From Pseudomonas baetica (GTDB lineage: Bacteria; Pseudomonadota; Gammaproteobacteria; Pseudomonadales; Pseudomonadaceae), in NCBI RefSeq assembly GCF_002813455.1, contig NZ_PHHE01000001.1:5452001-5516000 (forward strand): 64,000 bases of DNA. Reading direction: 5' to 3'. A program made the translations under genes and the position numbers. This document shows positions 2,963-49,700 of the stretch, one piece after another (position 1 is the stretch's first letter; each line of letters starts with the position of its first letter). The notes under the pieces are model-generated. The model had not been told where the DNA came from and made no database searches. It saw only the letters and a list, made by a program, of their open reading frames with translations.

Positions 2963-3922
2963 ATGACAACTACTGCCCCTTCGACTCCAGGCGTTCAACT
3001 GCTTGAAGTCTCGCCGGAGTATGCCGGCCAACGAATCGACAATTTTCTCCTCGCTCGGCTCAAAGGCGTGCCCAAGACCTTGATTTACCGCATTTTGCGC
3101 AAAGGCGAAGTACGGGTGAACAAAGGTCGGATCAAGCCCGAATACAAGCTGCAGGCCGGTGATATCGTGCGCGTGCCGCCGGTTCGCGTGCCTGAGCGTG
3201 ACGAGCCGGTGCCTCTGGCCCAAGGCTTGTTGCAGCGCCTGGAGGCCTCGATTGTCTTCGAAGACAAAGCCCTGATTGTGATCAACAAGCCCGCCGGCAT
3301 TGCGGTTCACGGCGGCAGCGGCTTGAATTTCGGCGTCATCGAAGCCTTTCGTCAGTTGCGTCCGGACGCCAAGGAGCTGGAGCTGGTTCATCGCCTCGAC
3401 CGTGACACCTCCGGCCTGCTGATGATCGCCAAGAAACGCAGCATGCTGCGTCACTTGCACGAAAAACTGCGTGGCGATGGCGTCGACAAGCGCTACATGG
3501 CGCTGGTTCGTGGCAACTGGGCGACCTCGATCAAGCAGGTCAGTGCGCCGTTGCTCAAGAGCAATCTGCGTTCTGGCGAACGTATGGTTGAAGTCAACGA
3601 TGAAGGCAAAGAAGCCCTGACCGTGTTCAAGGTGCTGCGTCGCTTCGGCGACTTCGCCACCATGGTCGAGGCCAAGCCTGTCACCGGGCGTACTCACCAG
3701 ATTCGCGTCCACACCTTGCACGCCGGGCATTGCATCGCTGGCGACAGCAAGTACGGCGATGACGATTTCACCAGGGAAATCCGCGATCTGGGCGGCAAGC
3801 GCCTGTTCCTGCACGCTTACATGCTTACCGTGCCGCTGCCCGACGGTGGCAAGCTGACCTTGCAGGCGCCGGTTGACGAAATGTGGGCCAAGACCGTGGA
3901 GCGATTGAGTGCGCCCATCTGA
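2963..3922 (+). CDS. rluC: 23S rRNA pseudouridine(955/2504/2580) synthase RluC
   Basis: RluC isomerises three uridines of 23S rRNA to pseudouridine. The 319-residue protein has an N-terminal S4 RNA-binding domain ([20 protein letters not shown] onward, about residues 20-80) and the synthase domain with the RluA-family catalytic motif HRLDRDTSG (about residue 142), whose first Asp is the nucleophile. The ATG at 2963 is chosen because homologues begin just before the S4 domain; the open frame upstream to 2708 lacks family similarity. The stop overlaps the start of the next gene, so the two are probably cotranscribed. Confidence 0.95.
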
Positions 3923-16778: not shown

Positions 16779-18110
16779 ATGGCGCGCAAGAACCAAAAAC
16801 GCTTTGAGATTGTTCATCACGACTGCGCCGGCATCGATGTGGGTAGTCGTGAGCATTGGGTCGCGGTCAATCCTGATCGATCCGATCCGCCTGTTCGTAA
16901 ATTTTTGACCTTCACCGATGACCTGATCGCGCTGGCCGACTGGCTTGAGTCGTTGAAGATCAAAGTGGTGGCCATGGAGGCGACCGGCGTTTATTGGATT
17001 CCTCTTTTCGAAGTGCTCGATGCCCGGGGATTCGAGGTTTATCTGGTCAACTCGCGGGCGACGCGACAGACCTCCGGCCGCAAATCCGATGTTCTGGATT
17101 GCCAGTGGATCTGGCAACTGATGACGCACGGCCTGTTGAGCGGGGCTTTTCGTCCAGCCGATGAAATTTGCTCGATGCGCTCGCTGGTACGGCAACGTGC
17201 CAATAAAGTCGCCGATCAAGCCAAAACCATCAACCGCATGCAGAAAGCCCTGAGCCAGATGAACATCCAGCTGGCCAATGTTATCAGCGACATTAGCGGC
17301 GTGACCGGGATGAAAATCCTCCAGGCAATAAATCAGGGTGAGCGCGATCCTCACGCTCTAGCCGCCTTGCGAGATCGGCGTATCAAGGCAGACCACGCCA
17401 CCATCGCCCGCAGCCTGCACGGCAATTGGCGCATGGAGCACCTGCATGCACTACGTCAGGAACTGGCGTGCTACGACTTTCTGGAAACACAAATCGCCGA
17501 GTGCGACAGGGCCATCGCACAAGCGCTTGAACGACTGCCCGTGCGTCAGGAAGAAGTCCCAGCGGCGTGTAAAGCGCTTCGCAACACTCATCGCTCGGCT
17601 GCGCAACAGACGGCCCTGCATCAGGCATTGGGCCAGGTGATGGGCGTGGATTTAACCGCCATCCCCACGATCGGGGTGGATACCGCGCTGGTGCTGGCCA
17701 GCGAGTTGGGCCCGGACTTGTCACGCTTCCCGACCTCACAACACTTTTGCTCATGGTTGGGTGTCGCGCCGCCAACCCGAATATCGGGCGGCAAACCTCT
17801 TCCGGGCAGAGCACCGAAGGTCATCAATCGAGCGGCTCAAGCGCTCAAGCAATCGGCTTCTAACGCCCGAAACGACAAAAGTTTTATCGGTGCCAGCCAC
17901 CGGGCACGCTTAAGCAGAATGGATACGGGCTGCGCCATCAAAGCAACCGCCCATCAACTGGCTCGGCTGATTTACGCCATGCTGACCAAGGGACAGCCGT
18001 ATGTTGAGCAAGGTTTGGAAGCTTACGAAGAAAAAAGCCGCAGCCGGCAACTGCGCGCCTTGGAACGCAAGGCACGCAAGCTGGGGATGCAGTTGGTGAT
18101 GGCTGGATAG
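16779..18110 (+). CDS. IS110-family transposase
   Basis: This 443-residue recombinase has the N-terminal RuvC-like DEDD domain (CAGIDVGSREHW, VAMEATGVYW, DVLDCQWIWQL) and a C-terminal Transposase_20 domain with the conserved Ser in APPTRISGGK. The family moves DNA through a DEDD/Ser chemistry guided by a bridge RNA from the element's own end. GAGGAA lies eight bases before the ATG. The frame is intact, so the element may be active. Its closest relatives cannot be named without a search. Confidence 0.93.
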   Translation: MARKNQKRFEIVHHDCAGIDVGSREHWVAVNPDRSDPPVRKFLTFTDDLIALADWLESLKIKVVAMEATGVYWIPLFEVLDARGFEVYLVNSRATRQTSGRKSDVLDCQWIWQLMTHGLLSGAFRPADEICSMRSLVRQRANKVADQAKTINRMQKALSQMNIQLANVISDISGVTGMKILQAINQGERDPHALAALRDRRIKADHATIARSLHGNWRMEHLHALRQELACYDFLETQIAECDRAIAQALERLPVRQEEVPAACKALRNTHRSAAQQTALHQALGQVMGVDLTAIPTIGVDTALVLASELGPDLSRFPTSQHFCSWLGVAPPTRISGGKPLPGRAPKVINRAAQALKQSASNARNDKSFIGASHRARLSRMDTGCAIKATAHQLARLIYAMLTKGQPYVEQGLEAYEEKSRSRQLRALERKARKLGMQLVMAG

Positions 18111-18273: not shown

Positions 18274-18388
18274 AAAAAAAACCCGGGTTCTGGGGGGGGA
18301 ATCCGGGTTAAGACCATTAGGAGTAAAACAAAGGCACGCGGTCCCTTGGTACCTTTATCGGCGCGGCACTTGGGGGAGATGCCGCCCG
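18274..18388 (-). ncRNA. rgsA: Probable small RNA RgsA
   Basis: In P. aeruginosa the RpoS- and Gac-influenced sRNA RgsA (about 120 nt) lies beside the homologue of the TetR gene that follows here (PA2957). On the minus strand there is a sigma-S-like -10 CAATACTT (18396-18403), a GC-rich body without a reading frame, and a strong terminator (AACCCGG ... CCGGGTT, then eight T, 18274-18308). The implied length is about 115 nt. The call rests on position, size and signals; sequence identity to RgsA was not checked. Confidence 0.65.
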
Positions 18389-18604
18389 ACAGTTCAAGTA
18401 TTGATCAGTCTGGCGTGCAGTCCAGTGAGCCGGTCGGGGTTTTTAAACAAATTTGGAATACGTTCGCTTCAGTTGAGTTCTCATTGCGCCCAAAACGTTC
18501 TCAAAACGAACAAGAAACACAGATATGGTCGGATGATCCGTGCATTTTTGCGCAAGTTAGGCATAATACGCGGCTTCGAATTTTGACCCTTCAGACCTTT
18601 TCTT

Positions 18605-44819: not shown

Positions 44820-45872
44820 TCAGACTTTCAGGGTCGCCATGTCGATCACGAAGCGATACTTCACGTCACCGGCGATCATGCGGGCATAAGCCTCGTTGAT
44901 CTGGCGGATGTCGAGCATTTCGATGTCGCAGGTGATGTTGTGCTCGGCGCAGAAATCCAGCACTTCCTGGGTTTCGGCGATGCCGCCGATCAACGAACCC
45001 GCCAGCACGCGGCGGCTCATCACCAGTTTGCCGGCGTGTACCGGTGGATCAACCGGCTCGATCAGACCGACCAGAATGTGTACGCCGTCGAAACGCAGGG
45101 TGTCGAGGTACGGGTTCAGGTCGTGCTGCACCGGAATGGTGTCGAGCAGGAAGTCGAAGTAACCGGCGGCCGCTTTCATCTGCTCGGCGTCGGTGGACAC
45201 GATCACATGATCGGCGCCCTGACGACGGCCTTCTTCAGCCTTGCTCGCCGAACGGGTGAACAGCGTCACTTCGGCGCCCATCGCTTTGGCGAACTTGATG
45301 CCCATGTGGCCGAGGCCGCCCATGCCCAAAATACCAACCTTGTCGCCAGCCTTGACGCCGTAGTGCTTGAGCGGCGAATACGTGGTGATGCCGGCGCAGA
45401 GAATCGGCGCGGCGCTGGCCAGTGCCAGTTTTTCCGGGATGCGTACCACGAAGTGCTCGCTGACGACGATGCTGTCAGAGTAGCCGCCCATGGTGTTGCT
45501 GCCGTCGACCCGGTCCGGGGTGGCATAGGTCATGGTCGGGCCTTCGAGGCAATACTGCTCAAGGTTCGATTGGCAGGCTTCGCAGGTGCGGCAAGAGTCG
45601 ACCATGCAGCCAACGCCGACCAGATCGCCTACTTTGTGTTTGGTGACATTCGCACCGACGGCGGTGACTTTTCCGACGATCTCATGGCCAGGCATCAACG
45701 GGTAAACGGCGATGCCCCATTCGTTGCGAGCCTGGTGGATATCGGAGTGGCAGACGCCGCAGTACAGGATCTCGATCGCCACGTCGTCGGCCCGGGGGCT
45801 GCGGCGTTCGAATTTCATCGGGGCGAGGGGAGTGGTGGCCGATTGGGCGGCATAGCCGATCGCGGTATACAT
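44820..45872 (-). CDS. Zinc-dependent NAD(P) alcohol dehydrogenase (YahK/CAD type)
   Basis: The 350-residue medium-chain dehydrogenase has the catalytic-zinc motif GVCHSDIHQARNEW, PGHEIVG, the four-Cys structural zinc (DSCRTCEACQSNLEQYC), and Rossmann motif LGMGGLGHMGIK. It resembles E. coli YahK, an NADPH aldehyde reductase. The ATG at 45872 starts MYTAIGYAAQSATTPL; longer frames enter the intergenic region. It is divergent from an AraC-type regulator. Confidence 0.92.
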   Translation of the reverse strand: MYTAIGYAAQSATTPLAPMKFERRSPRADDVAIEILYCGVCHSDIHQARNEWGIAVYPLMPGHEIVGKVTAVGANVTKHKVGDLVGVGCMVDSCRTCEACQSNLEQYCLEGPTMTYATPDRVDGSNTMGGYSDSIVVSEHFVVRIPEKLALASAAPILCAGITTYSPLKHYGVKAGDKVGILGMGGLGHMGIKFAKAMGAEVTLFTRSASKAEEGRRQGADHVIVSTDAEQMKAAAGYFDFLLDTIPVQHDLNPYLDTLRFDGVHILVGLIEPVDPPVHAGKLVMSRRVLAGSLIGGIAETQEVLDFCAEHNITCDIEMLDIRQINEAYARMIAGDVKYRFVIDMATLKV

Positions 45873-46056
45873 GTGAAACCTCGCAAAAGCAGTGACAAGT
45901 GAGGCGGCGCATTCTGGGCGCCGTGCGCCTGTCCGGCCATGACGATTCCTCCGGGTCTCATGCCTAATCCTCCGGCATGCGGCTTTGATCGGTCGCATTG
46001 GCAAAAGGATCTGCGATGATGCTTTCATCCCTTTTTCCGTGATTTTTGTGAAGAAC

Positions 46057-46953
46057 ATGTCGATGCAATTGACCCGTCACCTTGATGCCAATGCCACGCT
46101 GGTTTCGCTGATCGAACCGCTGGCGCTGCGCGATGGTTACAGCCAGACCGGGTTACCCGGTGTGCAGGTGTTGCGCGCCAGTTGCGATGTCGCCCGTGGC
46201 CCGCATATTTATGAGCCGAGCCTGATGATCATCGCCCAGGGCAGCAAACTGGCGTTCCTCGGACCGCGCACCCTGGAGTACGGCGCGGGGCATTATCTGA
46301 TCCAGGCACTGCCGGTGCCTTTCGAGTGCGAAACCTTTGCCTTGCCGGATGCGCCGTTGCTGGGGATTTCGGTGGCGATCGACCGCGTCTTGCTTGGCGA
46401 ATTAGTGCTGGCCATGGGGCTGGCGCCAGGGCGGCACATTCCGGCGCAGACCCCGGAGTCGATGACCTCGGTGGTGCTTGACGATGACATGCGCGGTTGT
46501 GTCGAGCGGCTGCTGCAATGTCTGCACGATCCGCTGGAGTGTCAGATTCTCGGGCCGGCGCGAATTCGCGAATTGCTCTTCGTCGCCTTGCGCGGGCCGC
46601 AGGCTGATGTGTTGCGGGCGCTGGTCGAGCAGCAGGGGCAGTTTGCCCGGGTGGCGGCATCGATCAGCCATCTGCATGCGCACTACACCGAGCCGTTGAA
46701 CGTCGAGACATTGGCCGGTTGCGCGAACATGAGCGTTTCAACGTTTCATGAGCATTTCAAACGCAGCACGTTGTTGTCGCCGGTGCAGTATCTGAAGCGT
46801 TTACGGTTGTTGAAAGCGCAGACGTTGTTGGTGGCGGAGGGGCTGGGTGTGGCGCAGGTGGCGCATCGGGTCGGGTATCAGAGTACGTCGCAGTTCAGTC
46901 GCGAATATAAGCGCTACTTTGAGCGCAGCCCGGGCGATGAACGCGCGGCTTGA
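46057..46953 (+). CDS. AraC-family regulator of the alcohol dehydrogenase
   Basis: The 298-residue protein has an AraC_N-type cupin (YSQTGLPGVQVLRASCDVARGPHIYEPSL) and a C-terminal double helix-turn-helix (NMSVSTFHEHFKRSTLLSPVQYLKRLRL and VGYQSTSQFSREYKRYF). AraC_N regulators commonly control a neighbouring oxidoreductase, so it likely activates the divergent dehydrogenase. The start may be ATG 46057 or 46063. Confidence 0.87.
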   Translation: MSMQLTRHLDANATLVSLIEPLALRDGYSQTGLPGVQVLRASCDVARGPHIYEPSLMIIAQGSKLAFLGPRTLEYGAGHYLIQALPVPFECETFALPDAPLLGISVAIDRVLLGELVLAMGLAPGRHIPAQTPESMTSVVLDDDMRGCVERLLQCLHDPLECQILGPARIRELLFVALRGPQADVLRALVEQQGQFARVAASISHLHAHYTEPLNVETLAGCANMSVSTFHEHFKRSTLLSPVQYLKRLRLLKAQTLLVAEGLGVAQVAHRVGYQSTSQFSREYKRYFERSPGDERAA

Positions 46954-46999
46954 TCAATACAAATCCCTTGTGGGAGATTCTATGGTTGAGGGGAAGCCC

Positions 47000-47941
47000 T
47001 CAACTGACTTTTGTCTGATATTCGCTTTGCCCTTTCAGCAAGGCGAATACCACCCGAGCAAGTTTGCGAGCCAGCATCACCAACGCCTGCGTGGTGCTGA
47101 AACCCCGTGCTCTCTGGGCTTCGTAAAACCCTTTCCAGGCTATCGTACGGCTAGCCGACATCGCTGCGTTGTGCAAAAGTCGGCGGGCCTCGGGGTCTCC
47201 GCGCTTGGTCAAGCTGCGGCGACCGTCCTTTTGCCCTGATTTCGATACCCGTAAATCCATGCCCAGGAAGGCGATAAACGCATCCGCGTTGCTAAATTCT
47301 CCCCGCTGAAACGCCGTGAGCAGGCGCGCTCCGGTCAGAAATCCAATGCCCTCAACTTTCAGGCAACGCTTCAATTGGCCGAGCAAACCGGCTTGTTTGA
47401 GCTGATCGTTGATCGTCTTTTCGATCATCGTTTCAAGCCGCTGCATGGATTTTATTTGTTCAGCAAAAGCTGCCTTCAACAGCGGCTCATTCGACCAGCT
47501 CTGCACTAGGCCGACCCTTGCCTGGACCAAAGCCGCGCGGCGGCGGAAAAGGCTCAGGAGCTGGCGGTACAGCGGTGATGGCGGGGTCCAGGGGTGCAAC
47601 TCCTCGGCTTCGTTCTTCAGGTAACGGGCCAGCAGCTTGGCGTCCAAGGCGTCGGTTTTGGCGCGGATCTTCACGCCTTCGCGGTAGTGTTTGAGTTCAT
47701 AGCCGCCCACCATGTAAATCGTGCAACCGGCCGCATAGGCCAAATCAGCGAATTCCAGGTGGTAGATGTTGGTTGCCTCAATGGCAATAGACACGGGGAC
47801 GAGCAAGGCCTTCAGCCACTGCTTGATGGATGTTTTGGTATTGGGAATCGCTTCAAGCAGATCGCTATCGGCCTGATAAATCACCAGTTCATTTTTGGCG
47901 ACATCCACGCCAACGATCGGATTTGATAGAGCGACTGGCAT
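47000..47941 (-). CDS. IS110-family transposase (IS621-like layout)
   Basis: The 313-residue protein has the DEDD RuvC-like domain (IVGVDVAKNELVIY, IAIEATNIYH, DALDAKLLARYL) and the C-terminal domain with Ser in RVSKSGQKDGRRSLTKRGD. Length and layout are close to IS621. The start is ATG 47941 behind CGGAGGA; the GTG at 47977 would extend into the non-coding end. The frame is intact. Confidence 0.92.
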   Translation of the reverse strand: MPVALSNPIVGVDVAKNELVIYQADSDLLEAIPNTKTSIKQWLKALLVPVSIAIEATNIYHLEFADLAYAAGCTIYMVGGYELKHYREGVKIRAKTDALDAKLLARYLKNEAEELHPWTPPSPLYRQLLSLFRRRAALVQARVGLVQSWSNEPLLKAAFAEQIKSMQRLETMIEKTINDQLKQAGLLGQLKRCLKVEGIGFLTGARLLTAFQRGEFSNADAFIAFLGMDLRVSKSGQKDGRRSLTKRGDPEARRLLHNAAMSASRTIAWKGFYEAQRARGFSTTQALVMLARKLARVVFALLKGQSEYQTKVS

Positions 47942-47974
47942 TGCCACAGGATTTCCTCCGGGATAAGGTTTGAG

Positions 47975-48149
47975 CACTTGAAGGGCTCACCCAGAGGCGC
48001 AGGCTTGTTCCTATCGTCGGTCTAGCCAGATGCATTCTTTATCGGCGCTTGGGTGAAAGGAGGAGGGGCGAAATCTCCCACGGTCTGTGCTGCGTCAACA
48101 GTCAGAATCGAGCCTTGTCCCTCCTCCTCCCTTCAAGTCCTACCATACA
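47975..48149 (-). ncRNA. Bridge RNA of the second IS110 element, guides readable
   Basis: Read on the minus strand, a first stem (10 bp, 48119-48128 with 48058-48067) closes a loop whose 5' side holds GGCTCG (48109-48114) and 3' side GTGGGAG (48075-48081). On this strand the REP target reads GGCTCG-CT-CCCAC: the first guide equals the left arm and the second is the complement of CT plus the right arm. A second stem (48050-48056 with 47987-47993) closes a loop with AGAAT (48034-48038), equal to the far element end, and ACAAG (48004-48008), complement of CTTGT at the near end. Expression is inferred. Confidence 0.82.
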
Positions 48150-48151
48150 AG

Positions 48152-48234
48152 CGAGCCTGCTCGCGAAAGCGGTGTATCCGTCGACGTCATCGTTGTATGA
48201 CACATTGCTTTCGCGAGCAGGCTCGCTCCCACCG
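48152..48234. repeat. Right part of the REP pair split by the IS110 element
   Basis: CGAGCCTGCTCGCGAAAGCG, a spacer with GTCGACG, then GCTTTCGCGAGCAGGCTCGC and TCCCAC. The outer TGTGGGAG of the first unit is at 46969-46976. Confidence 0.88.
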
Positions 48235-48332
48235 TTGTTTTGTGATGTTACTGGAATCGAGGGCAACAAAAAGGCCCCCAATTCGGGTAATGCTGTTCAC
48301 TTAAGCATTTGAATCCTCGCCGGGCTTCTTCG

Positions 48333-48366
48333 AAAATCCGATGTCAGATCTCTGGCATCGGATTTT
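48333..48366 (+). promoter_or_regulatory. Hairpin at the IS4 transposase start
   Basis: AAAATCCGATG and CATCGGATTTT pair and end two bases before the ATG, where a ribosome site would stand. The sister element at 61.4 kb has the same stem. It could block read-in translation. Confidence 0.65.
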
Positions 48367-48368
48367 TT

Positions 48369-49700
48369 ATGTCTGTTCAACAGGACTTGCTCGACCTCGG
48401 CGACCTTTTCAACTTCTGTGACTTGAGCACATTCACTCAAAATATTCCCATCGAGTGGGTCGCGTCTGCGCTGGATCTGTCCAGCCAAGCCACTATCCGA
48501 CGGCGTCGCTTGCCTGCCGACCAAGTGCTCTGGCTGGTGCTCGGCATGGCATTGTTTCGCGACGAGCCGGTTCATGAGGTCGCCCGACGTTTGAACATCT
48601 GCGCCCAAGGTCTGGCTTCTGACCATCTGTTGGCCCGTAGCGGTGTGACCGAGGCCCGCAAGCGGCTGGGGGCCGACCCGGTTGAGTGGTTGTTTCGCAA
48701 AACGGGTACTCAATGGGGCGCGCAGCGCTATCCCGATGATGCCTGGCAGGATCTGCAAGTATTTGCAGTCGATGGTGCGCTTCTGCGCACGCCGGATACG
48801 CCGGAGTTGCGAGACCATTTCGGTTCTGGAAACACCTCGACCGACCGCCAGACTCCCTTTCCCATGCTGCGCCTGGTGGCGCTGATGAATGTGCGTTCAC
48901 ACCTGATCCTGGATGCACAGCTTAGCCCTTACCGACGCAGCGAAATGCGTCTGGCCGATGAGTTTTTGCAGCAGATCCCCGACCACTCCGTGACGTTGTT
49001 CGATAAAGGGTTCTGGAGCGCCGATCTCATGCTCAGCCTGAGCGGCGACGGCAGTCACCGTCATTGGCTGATTCCGGCAAAAAAGGGATTGGTTTGCGAG
49101 GAGGTAGCCCGTTACAACGAGCATGATCGTTTGGTGCGTATGAAAGTGTCGCCGCAAGCCAGAAAGCGAAATCCGACTCTTCCTACACACTGGGAGGCGC
49201 GTGAAGTCAGTTATGAAATTCAAGGCAAAGTAAAAACAGTCATGACGTCGTTGCCGGCCAAGATCTACAGCACCAAGTCTGTTGCCAAGCTTTATCAGGA
49301 GCGCTGGGAAATCGAATTGGGCTTCAGGGATATCAAAAGCTCAATGCAGCAAAACGCAATGACCTTGCGCAGCAAAAAGGTCGATCTGATCTACCAGGAA
49401 GTGTGGGGGTTGTTGCTGGCTTACAACGTGATTCGTCGGGAGGCAAGTCAGGCAGCAGTCGCGTTTGGTCGAGCGCCGTCGGACATCCGTTTCAAGCCGG
49501 CTTGCCAGTACATCGCCGTGCAGTTGATCGTGATGGCAGCGGCCAATCCTGTTTCAGCGACGGGTAGACGGTTGGCGGAACTTAGAAAAGGCGTTGGCGG
49601 GCTGTTTCTGGATCACCGCCCAAGGCCTTCGAGGCCAAGGACGGTGAAGATTTCAAAAACCCGGTTTCCGGTGGACCGTAAGGCTGCTCCGCTTAAGTGA
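48369..49700 (+). CDS. IS4-family transposase
   Basis: The 443-residue DDE transposase has the first Asp in FAVDGALLRTPDTPE, the second in VTLFDKGFWS, and the YREK signature [15 protein letters not shown] containing the catalytic Glu. The ATG at 48369 lies directly behind the hairpin. The stop lies within the right inverted repeat. The frame is intact. Confidence 0.95.
   Translation: MSVQQDLLDLGDLFNFCDLSTFTQNIPIEWVASALDLSSQATIRRRRLPADQVLWLVLGMALFRDEPVHEVARRLNICAQGLASDHLLARSGVTEARKRLGADPVEWLFRKTGTQWGAQRYPDDAWQDLQVFAVDGALLRTPDTPELRDHFGSGNTSTDRQTPFPMLRLVALMNVRSHLILDAQLSPYRRSEMRLADEFLQQIPDHSVTLFDKGFWSADLMLSLSGDGSHRHWLIPAKKGLVCEEVARYNEHDRLVRMKVSPQARKRNPTLPTHWEAREVSYEIQGKVKTVMTSLPAKIYSTKSVAKLYQERWEIELGFRDIKSSMQQNAMTLRSKKVDLIYQEVWGLLLAYNVIRREASQAAVAFGRAPSDIRFKPACQYIAVQLIVMAAANPVSATGRRLAELRKGVGGLFLDHRPRPSRPRTVKISKTRFPVDRKAAPLK

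Follow-up and report, generated by a model that had tools for sequence, protein, structure and literature searches.

A minus-strand IS110-type element (46977-48151) splits a Pseudomonas REP in the 64,000-nt stretch of P. baetica DNA analysed here (the window), and it is very probably an IS110-group insertion sequence with a bridge RNA encoded in its left end. This assignment is supported by sequence matches, a predicted RNA fold, covariation, allele choice and conserved catalytic positions. The first-pass annotation had proposed a bridge RNA for this REP-targeting Pseudomonas element from a single copy, and covariation between guides and flanks in its relatives now supports that proposal.

Read on the minus strand, the left arm of the REP (..GCAGGCTCG) is followed by the core CT (48151-48150), a 208-nt non-coding left end, the recombinase gene, a short right end (..ACCATAGAAT), a second core CT (46976-46975) and the REP end CCCAC (Table 1); the element measures 1,175 bp including one core. 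A CT core at both junctions is a feature of the IS110 group. The earlier description of the element as splitting a REP, with core AG/CT at both junctions, was confirmed in the sequence in all its positions and strings. Near the split and intact REPs lies an IS4-family transposase gene (48309-49700, plus strand). A scan of the whole window at Rfam gathering thresholds returned three families, none at the element: rne-II (2273-2540, minus), RgsA (18283-18475, minus) and P10 (37637-37708, plus). In a scan of 45500-49500 the single match was sub-threshold (48143-48366, 27.8 bits against a gathering cut-off of 97). No PLSDB plasmid matched at E 1e-30, in a search from which near relatives of the window's genome were possibly left out.

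Table 1. Features of the element and its split REP (window positions; nc, numbering along the non-coding RNA)
Feature	Position	Strand	Basis or remark
Left target arm (LT) AGGCTCG, part of split REP	48152..48158	-	sequence; identical in 7/7 own-genome copies
Core CT, left junction	48150..48151	-	sequence
Core CT, right junction	46975..46976	-	sequence
Right target arm (RT) CCCAC, last five bases of the REP	46970..46974	-	identical in 7/7 own-genome copies
Sub-terminal inverted repeat TATGGT (partner ACCATA at 48142-48147)	46981..46986		sequence
Intact REP, same allele as the split one, inverted, adjoining the element	48210..48232	+	sequence ttcgcgagcaggctcgctcccac
Predicted bridge RNA body, outer stem and two hairpins, ends approximate	47977..48139	-	fold, RNAalifold
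Putative left target guide AGGCTCG, nc37-43	48109..48115	-	identical to LT; agrees with LT-6, -5, -3, -2 beyond shuffles
Putative right target guide GTGGGAG, nc71-77	48075..48081	-	complementary to core CT and RT CCCAC; RT+3/nc73
Putative target-hairpin handshake ATT, nc78-80	48072..48074	-	complementary to left-donor AAT
Putative left donor guide AGAAT, nc114-118	48034..48038	-	identical to left donor (LD) 46977-46981
Putative right donor guide ACAAG, nc144-148	48004..48008	-	complementary to CTTGT
Putative donor-hairpin handshake C, nc149	48003..48003	-	complementary to LT-1 G, last base of left target
IS110-type recombinase gene, 313 aa	47000..47941	-	ATG 47941, stop 47002-47000

The recombinase, searched with 47003-47977, contains the Pfam domains DEDD_Tnp_IS110 (3.5e-20) and Transposase_20 (4.6e-17), a predicted RuvC-like DEDD plus Transposase_20 architecture that places it in the IS110 group. 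It passes the NCBIfam model NF033542, 'IS110 family RNA-guided transposase', with 171.9 bits against a cut-off of 140. The ISCro4 recombinase, for which a structure has been solved (9t56), is a detectable relative (E 5e-19); ISCro4 has a host and a target other than those of the present element. The structure of IS621 (8wt6) was matched over residues 10-305 (E 7.5e-20, 74.8 bits), and the IS621 catalytic residues D, E, D, D and S, whose roles are described in PMC11208158, have identical counterparts in an alignment read by eye with the chain numbering taken as offset by two. A second, distantly related IS110-family gene is present in the window at 16779-18110 (plus strand, 443 aa, DEDD_Tnp_IS110).

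The non-coding end had been described as two stem-loops. Folding of 48151-47965 indeed gave two hairpins, enclosed by an outer stem, with a minimum free energy of -71.2 kcal/mol (z -2.83; 3 of 200 dinucleotide shuffles folded at least as well), and RNAalifold kept 30 pairs, 3 of them with a compensatory change, in an alignment of 24 sequences. RNA positions are numbered so that nc n corresponds to window position 48152-n. Within these hairpins, each of the four segments proposed as guides was found in the sequence as described: GGCTCG, identical to the left target arm; GTGGGAG (48075-48081), complementary to the core CT plus CCCAC; AGAAT (48034-48038), identical to the far element end at 46977-46981; and ACAAG (48004-48008), complementary to CTTGT at the near end. 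Two details required correction. The first match is 7 nt long (AGGCTCG) rather than 6, and the left segments stop at the core, such that the core is read by the two right guides only (AG in each) and the RNA continues after the left guides with AT in the target hairpin and GC in the donor hairpin, without core letters. The further idea that the guides are carried in loops holds in that all four lie inside the two hairpins; in the predicted free fold, however, the two target guides pair with each other in part (CTC of the left one with GAG of the right one), the left donor guide is locally paired at AGA, and pairing also takes in the end of the right donor guide, so the guides are not simply open loops. 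The handshake positions are assigned as described for IS621 (PMC11208158). By arithmetic, a given 5-mer is expected about 0.18 times per orientation in 185 nt, and the 5-nt donor matches alone are therefore not significant, being near chance expectation; each of the two 7-mer target matches is expected about 0.01 times.

The P. baetica genome contains seven copies of the element, five whole and two split by another insertion sequence, and LT AGGCTCG and RT CCCAC flank all seven. Three further copies (L003, L004 and L005) differ from that of the window at 2, 2 and 3 positions, respectively. The string GCTCGCTCCCAC was counted 882 times in this genome and the reversed control 3 times. In the two split copies (L006/L009 and L007/L008) the donor hairpin is interrupted, at points about 10 nt apart, by elements with common ends, and the recombinase gene is left open; the interrupting element in the L006 copy carries two IS3-type genes (HTH_Tnp_1 and rve).

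Because one copy could not prove the guide matches, relatives were tested. A match at E 1e-20 was present in 36 of 199 congeneric genomes, the element's own included; a named scan found 277 relatives, the best 80 of which were kept, and among the matches listed the closest relative is in P. neuropathica P155 (100%). Copies of relatives were picked by choice and are mostly full length, shorter matches (G125, G039, G052 and others) being left out. From 154 loci, a set that stands apart from the two split own-genome copies and from 11 loci of a far clade, 131 distinct insertions were kept; 19 loci were dropped as the same place held twice and 4 for want of a readable left end. Copies whose flanks do not follow the loops had been named as evidence that would count against the proposal, and mostly the opposite was found: in addition to the seven own-genome copies, the 6-nt left target guide agrees exactly with its flank in 90 of the 131 insertions and is one base off in 36, where an N accounts for one case; the other five insertions have two mismatches (2 cases), three (2) or four (1). 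Counted by the commonest pair per host label, with one genome (P. kilonensis, G039) standing under two labels, 31 of 46 pairs are exact. When targets were shuffled among hosts 100,000 times, the mean was 9.4 exact pairs and the maximum 20.

The remaining 15 host labels are mostly one base off. Guide and target read GACTCG and GGCTCG in G011/TH15 (5/5 insertions), AGCTCG and GGCTCG in G128 (4/4) and likewise in P. laurylsulfativorans (7/9, with 1/9 exact), and G004/G139 is one base off its guide in 5/5; for G128 and P. laurylsulfativorans the register had been shifted by hand after inspection, and most of their insertions were still one base off. So a single mismatch may be tolerated in these hosts, or the register may differ there. 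A few individual loci are noted separately. L045 (6/6 guide bases) and L071, L074 and L165 (5/6) match without an ordinary REP arm beyond, which suggests that the footprint may be enough without the whole hairpin. L048, in which both flanks read CCCACATTTGGTAG, the left flank is non-REP and the guide is mismatched at 4/6, is probably a rearranged copy; L077, a shorter element (1,093 bp) that has kept the target hairpin and has no donor hairpin, may be defective; and at L076, in G066, two relatives stand in tandem about 1.35 kb apart.

On the right side, guide and arm agree in 121 of 129 readable cases (115 GTGGGAG/CCCAC and 6 GTAGGAG/CCTAC). The eight exceptions comprise six G080 copies, one CTCAC, in which a G-U pair is possible, and one CCTAC. 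Covariation of the right guide rests on one variant, G094, and G080 is a counter-case, in that its right guide GTGAGAG predicts the right arm CTCAC and RT was CCCAC. The donor-hairpin handshake base nc149 is complementary to LT-1 in 124 of 129 readable cases. The first handshake base of the target hairpin is A in 131/131 and therefore cannot covary.

In a blind scan, covariation was also assessed at 3,069 pairings of a flank position with an RNA position, scored for identity or complementarity over 52 host/RNA groups, with up to 12 left and 5 right flank positions (invariant ones skipped) and every variable RNA position. The two largest excesses over shuffles both fell on the predicted register of the left target guide, at LT-6/nc38 (0.90 against 0.49, excess 0.41) and LT-3/nc41 (0.88 against 0.52, excess 0.36). 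LT-5/nc39 (0.90/0.77) and LT-2/nc42 (0.88/0.75) ranked fifth and sixth, with an excess of 0.13 each; LT-1/nc149 (0.94/0.84) ranked thirteenth and RT+3/nc73 (1.00/0.90) eighteenth, both by complement and both with an excess of 0.10. The third-ranking pair, LT-10/nc41 (0.18), and the ninth, LT-11/nc42, also by complement, are interpreted through the REP palindrome, in which LT-10 and LT-11 would be the partners of LT-3 and LT-2. Among the top 30 pairs by z, 6 are on the predicted register; the 24 others have an excess of at most 0.07, often from rare states, a pattern such as shared ancestry would give. Ancestry was controlled for by comparing pairs on non-overlapping branches of a transposase tree that held 51 of the 52 groups. 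For nc38/LT-6, guide and target changed in the same direction in 5.7 of 6 pairs and in the opposite direction in 0 (median p 0.031), and for nc41/LT-3 in 5.5 of 7 and 0.3, respectively (median p 0.0625); for nc39 and nc42 there were too few events, and the median p was above 0.05, as for nc41. Flank positions LT-8, -9, -10 and -12, outside the footprint, had no trend with nc38 in this test. At nc149/LT-1 the tree holds only two independent changes, both agreeing in most pairings. Repeated guide changes are thus seen along the transposase tree, and the target follows them. Covariation of the loop guides with the flanks, the check that had been proposed at the outset, is strong for the left target guide across the 131 insertions. 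Chance matching of the guides was rejected in view of the host-label shuffles and the scan excesses on the left guide.

The donor guides match the element ends, but within the home clade there is little donor variation, and the donor hairpin is therefore best supported by the far clade, 11 loci in 5 genomes with 24-28% identity, which have another donor, GACGGTAT, and other targets. LT plus core has a 9-10 nt match to the locus's own RNA in all 11, and that match begins at RNA position 62-65; none of 88 mismatched pairings exceeds 7 nt. The left donor is read as ACGGTAT in 11/11, and with the core in 7/11, so that the left donor follows between clades. Right-side matches in the far clade are only 3-5 nt. 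After the left target guide, CT is read in G094 and in the far clade, unlike in the window's element. These observations bear on the possibility that the target guides are real and AGAAT and ACAAG are chance 5-mers, the donor being read in some other way. The expected frequency of such 5-mers, the near-invariance of the donor ends in the home clade and a second complementary match to CTTGT in the RNA of L001 (position 34) would be compatible with it. We nevertheless consider it unlikely, because each segment is on the side of the second hairpin where it would be expected, the far-clade left donor finds its ACGGTAT at every locus and the base directly beside ACAAG follows the target.

Whether REPs of like shape are distinguished within one genome was assessed by counting four REP alleles in 13 genomes, with other alleles uncounted and all sites taken as equally open. 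In G000 (GGCTCG 854, AGCCCG 601, AGCTCG 20) the guide is GGCTCG and 7/7 insertions are in the guided allele; similarly, in G183 (AGCCCG 514, GGCTCG 358) the guide is AGCCCG, with 6/6. The guided allele need not be the commonest. The guide of G039 is AGCTCG (AGCCCG 639, AGCTCG 350, GGCTCG 300), with 4/4 insertions in that allele, and in G125 the same guide spells the rarest of three (GGCTCG 798, AGCCCG 194, AGCTCG 112), which received 3/4. Together, these four mixed genomes have 20/21 insertions in the guided allele against 8.95 expected, a count reached in 0 of a million simulations. A fifth mixed genome, G128 (GGCTCG 162, AGCCCG 146, AGCTCG 114), is adverse: its guide, with the register shifted by one base, is AGCTCG, and 0/4 insertions are in AGCTCG and 4/4 in GGCTCG. 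With G128 included, 20/25 insertions are in the guided allele against an expectation of 10.0, a count that 10 of a million simulations attained; addition of the near-single-allele genomes G111, G052 and G070 gives 28/34 against 18.5 (59 of a million). Of the 13 genomes counted, 7 entered the first simulation set and 8 the set with G128. G094, G018 and G080 fall outside the test because their allele is not among the four; the alleles spelled by their guides are scarce or missing among the twelve other genomes searched. G139 and G011 are also outside it, since the allele used differs from the guide's own, which counts against the reading. Based on these results we lean towards regarding the left target guide as a naturally re-programmed module that tracks host REP alleles, in which 1-3 RNA bases change and the recombinase and donor hairpin stay nearly fixed, and by which the element would move between alleles and distinguish them within one genome, even when the guided allele is not the commonest; the behaviour of G128 weakens this reading.

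Site selection by the recombinase protein or by the shape of the REP hairpin, with the RNA matches as passengers, is very unlikely. In its favour, REPs are palindromic, and the association was earlier treated as one in which transposases recognise the target (PMC1525189); transposases differ between hosts, so that protein and guide divergence are partly confounded, and the G128 insertions lie in an allele that its guide does not spell. However, agreement peaks at the matched RNA positions and is absent at the four flank positions outside the footprint, and one allele is preferred among like-shaped REPs in 4/5 mixed genomes. Furthermore, the transposases of L142 (P. sp. RIT288) and L153 (P. sp. 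DTU12.3) are 91% identical and their RNAs differ at 6/150 positions, 3 of them within the 6-nt guide, and each guide matches its own target. Protein-only or hairpin-only targeting was accordingly rejected as the main explanation on the strength of allele choice, this guide swap, and the scan and tree together. It is scarcely credible that the matches are DNA-level remnants recording ancestry, whether REP fragments picked up or gene conversion with flanking REPs, for although guide and REP have 7 nt in common in the commonest alleles and both are multicopy within one genome, the two matches differ in sense as they do in IS621, one being direct and the other complementary. In addition, the handshake base following LT-1 sits in the other hairpin, and the 9-10 nt matches of the far-clade loci, which have other targets, lie at almost the same position of the RNA in 11/11.

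The favoured reading is a bridge RNA that would select the REP target. From IS621 we infer transcription of the RNA, circle formation, pairing and strand exchange. The first hairpin would pair with the REP target, the left guide with the bottom strand and the right guide with the top strand plus the core, and the second hairpin would pair with the ends of the element itself, once joined. Strand exchange at the CT core by the DEDD/serine recombinase would then place the element, as a circle, at a single fixed position within REPs, with the left target guide as the variable part that would follow the REP allele used in each host. A sigma-70 scan of 46900-48300 found no promoter. In IS621 a promoter forms anew at the circle junction, from a -35 in the right end and a -10 in the left end; at the modelled junction of the present element, TTCCCC and TATGGT stand 17 nt apart, with 3 and 4 of 6 consensus letters, respectively, and over 128 insertions the -35 score is 3.2 in the joined and 1.7 in the integrated form, as scored with no shuffle control.

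The bridge-RNA mechanism was discovered in 2024. The present element resembles IS621 of E. coli, as described in PMC11208160 and PMC11208158, in its upstream two-loop RNA, CT core and REP target, in having guides on the same sides of the loops, and in its handshake pairs and DEDD plus serine catalytic residues. It differs in that the proteins are only distantly related and in that all four guides of IS621 read the core, whereas the left guides here continue with AT and GC, not CT. It is also like the seekRNA of IS1111/IS110 elements, an RNA from a non-coding region that is described as selecting the target (PMC11187229); in ISPa11, an IS1111-type element with a REP target in P. aeruginosa, the RNA is described as lying downstream of the gene, whereas here it lies upstream. 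REP insertion by Pseudomonas IS110 elements has been in print since 2006, with ISPpu10 reported to insert into P. putida REPs in 7/7 copies (PMC1525189), and in Durrant et al. 2024 (PMC11208160) the legend to Extended Data Fig. 10 lists ISPpu10 as one of six ISfinder elements with predicted LTG, RTG, LDG and RDG. The likeness to ISPpu10, a Pseudomonas IS110 element that inserts in REPs and has predicted guides, is by description only. The present element is therefore not the first of its kind, and the novelty claimed for its decoding in the first-pass annotation was overstated. New here are the element itself and guide/REP-allele matching within genomes; on the latter, no paper turned up in a literature search over titles and abstract openings, with most subscription papers and all preprints outside its scope.

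Together, the element and its relatives supply naturally occurring bridge RNAs whose differences lie mainly in the target guide and whose genomic outcomes are known, so that guide length, mismatch tolerance and handshake pairing could be read from nature. That one REP allele is preferred where a single genome offers hundreds of nearly identical repeats is a strong statement about specificity in living cells.
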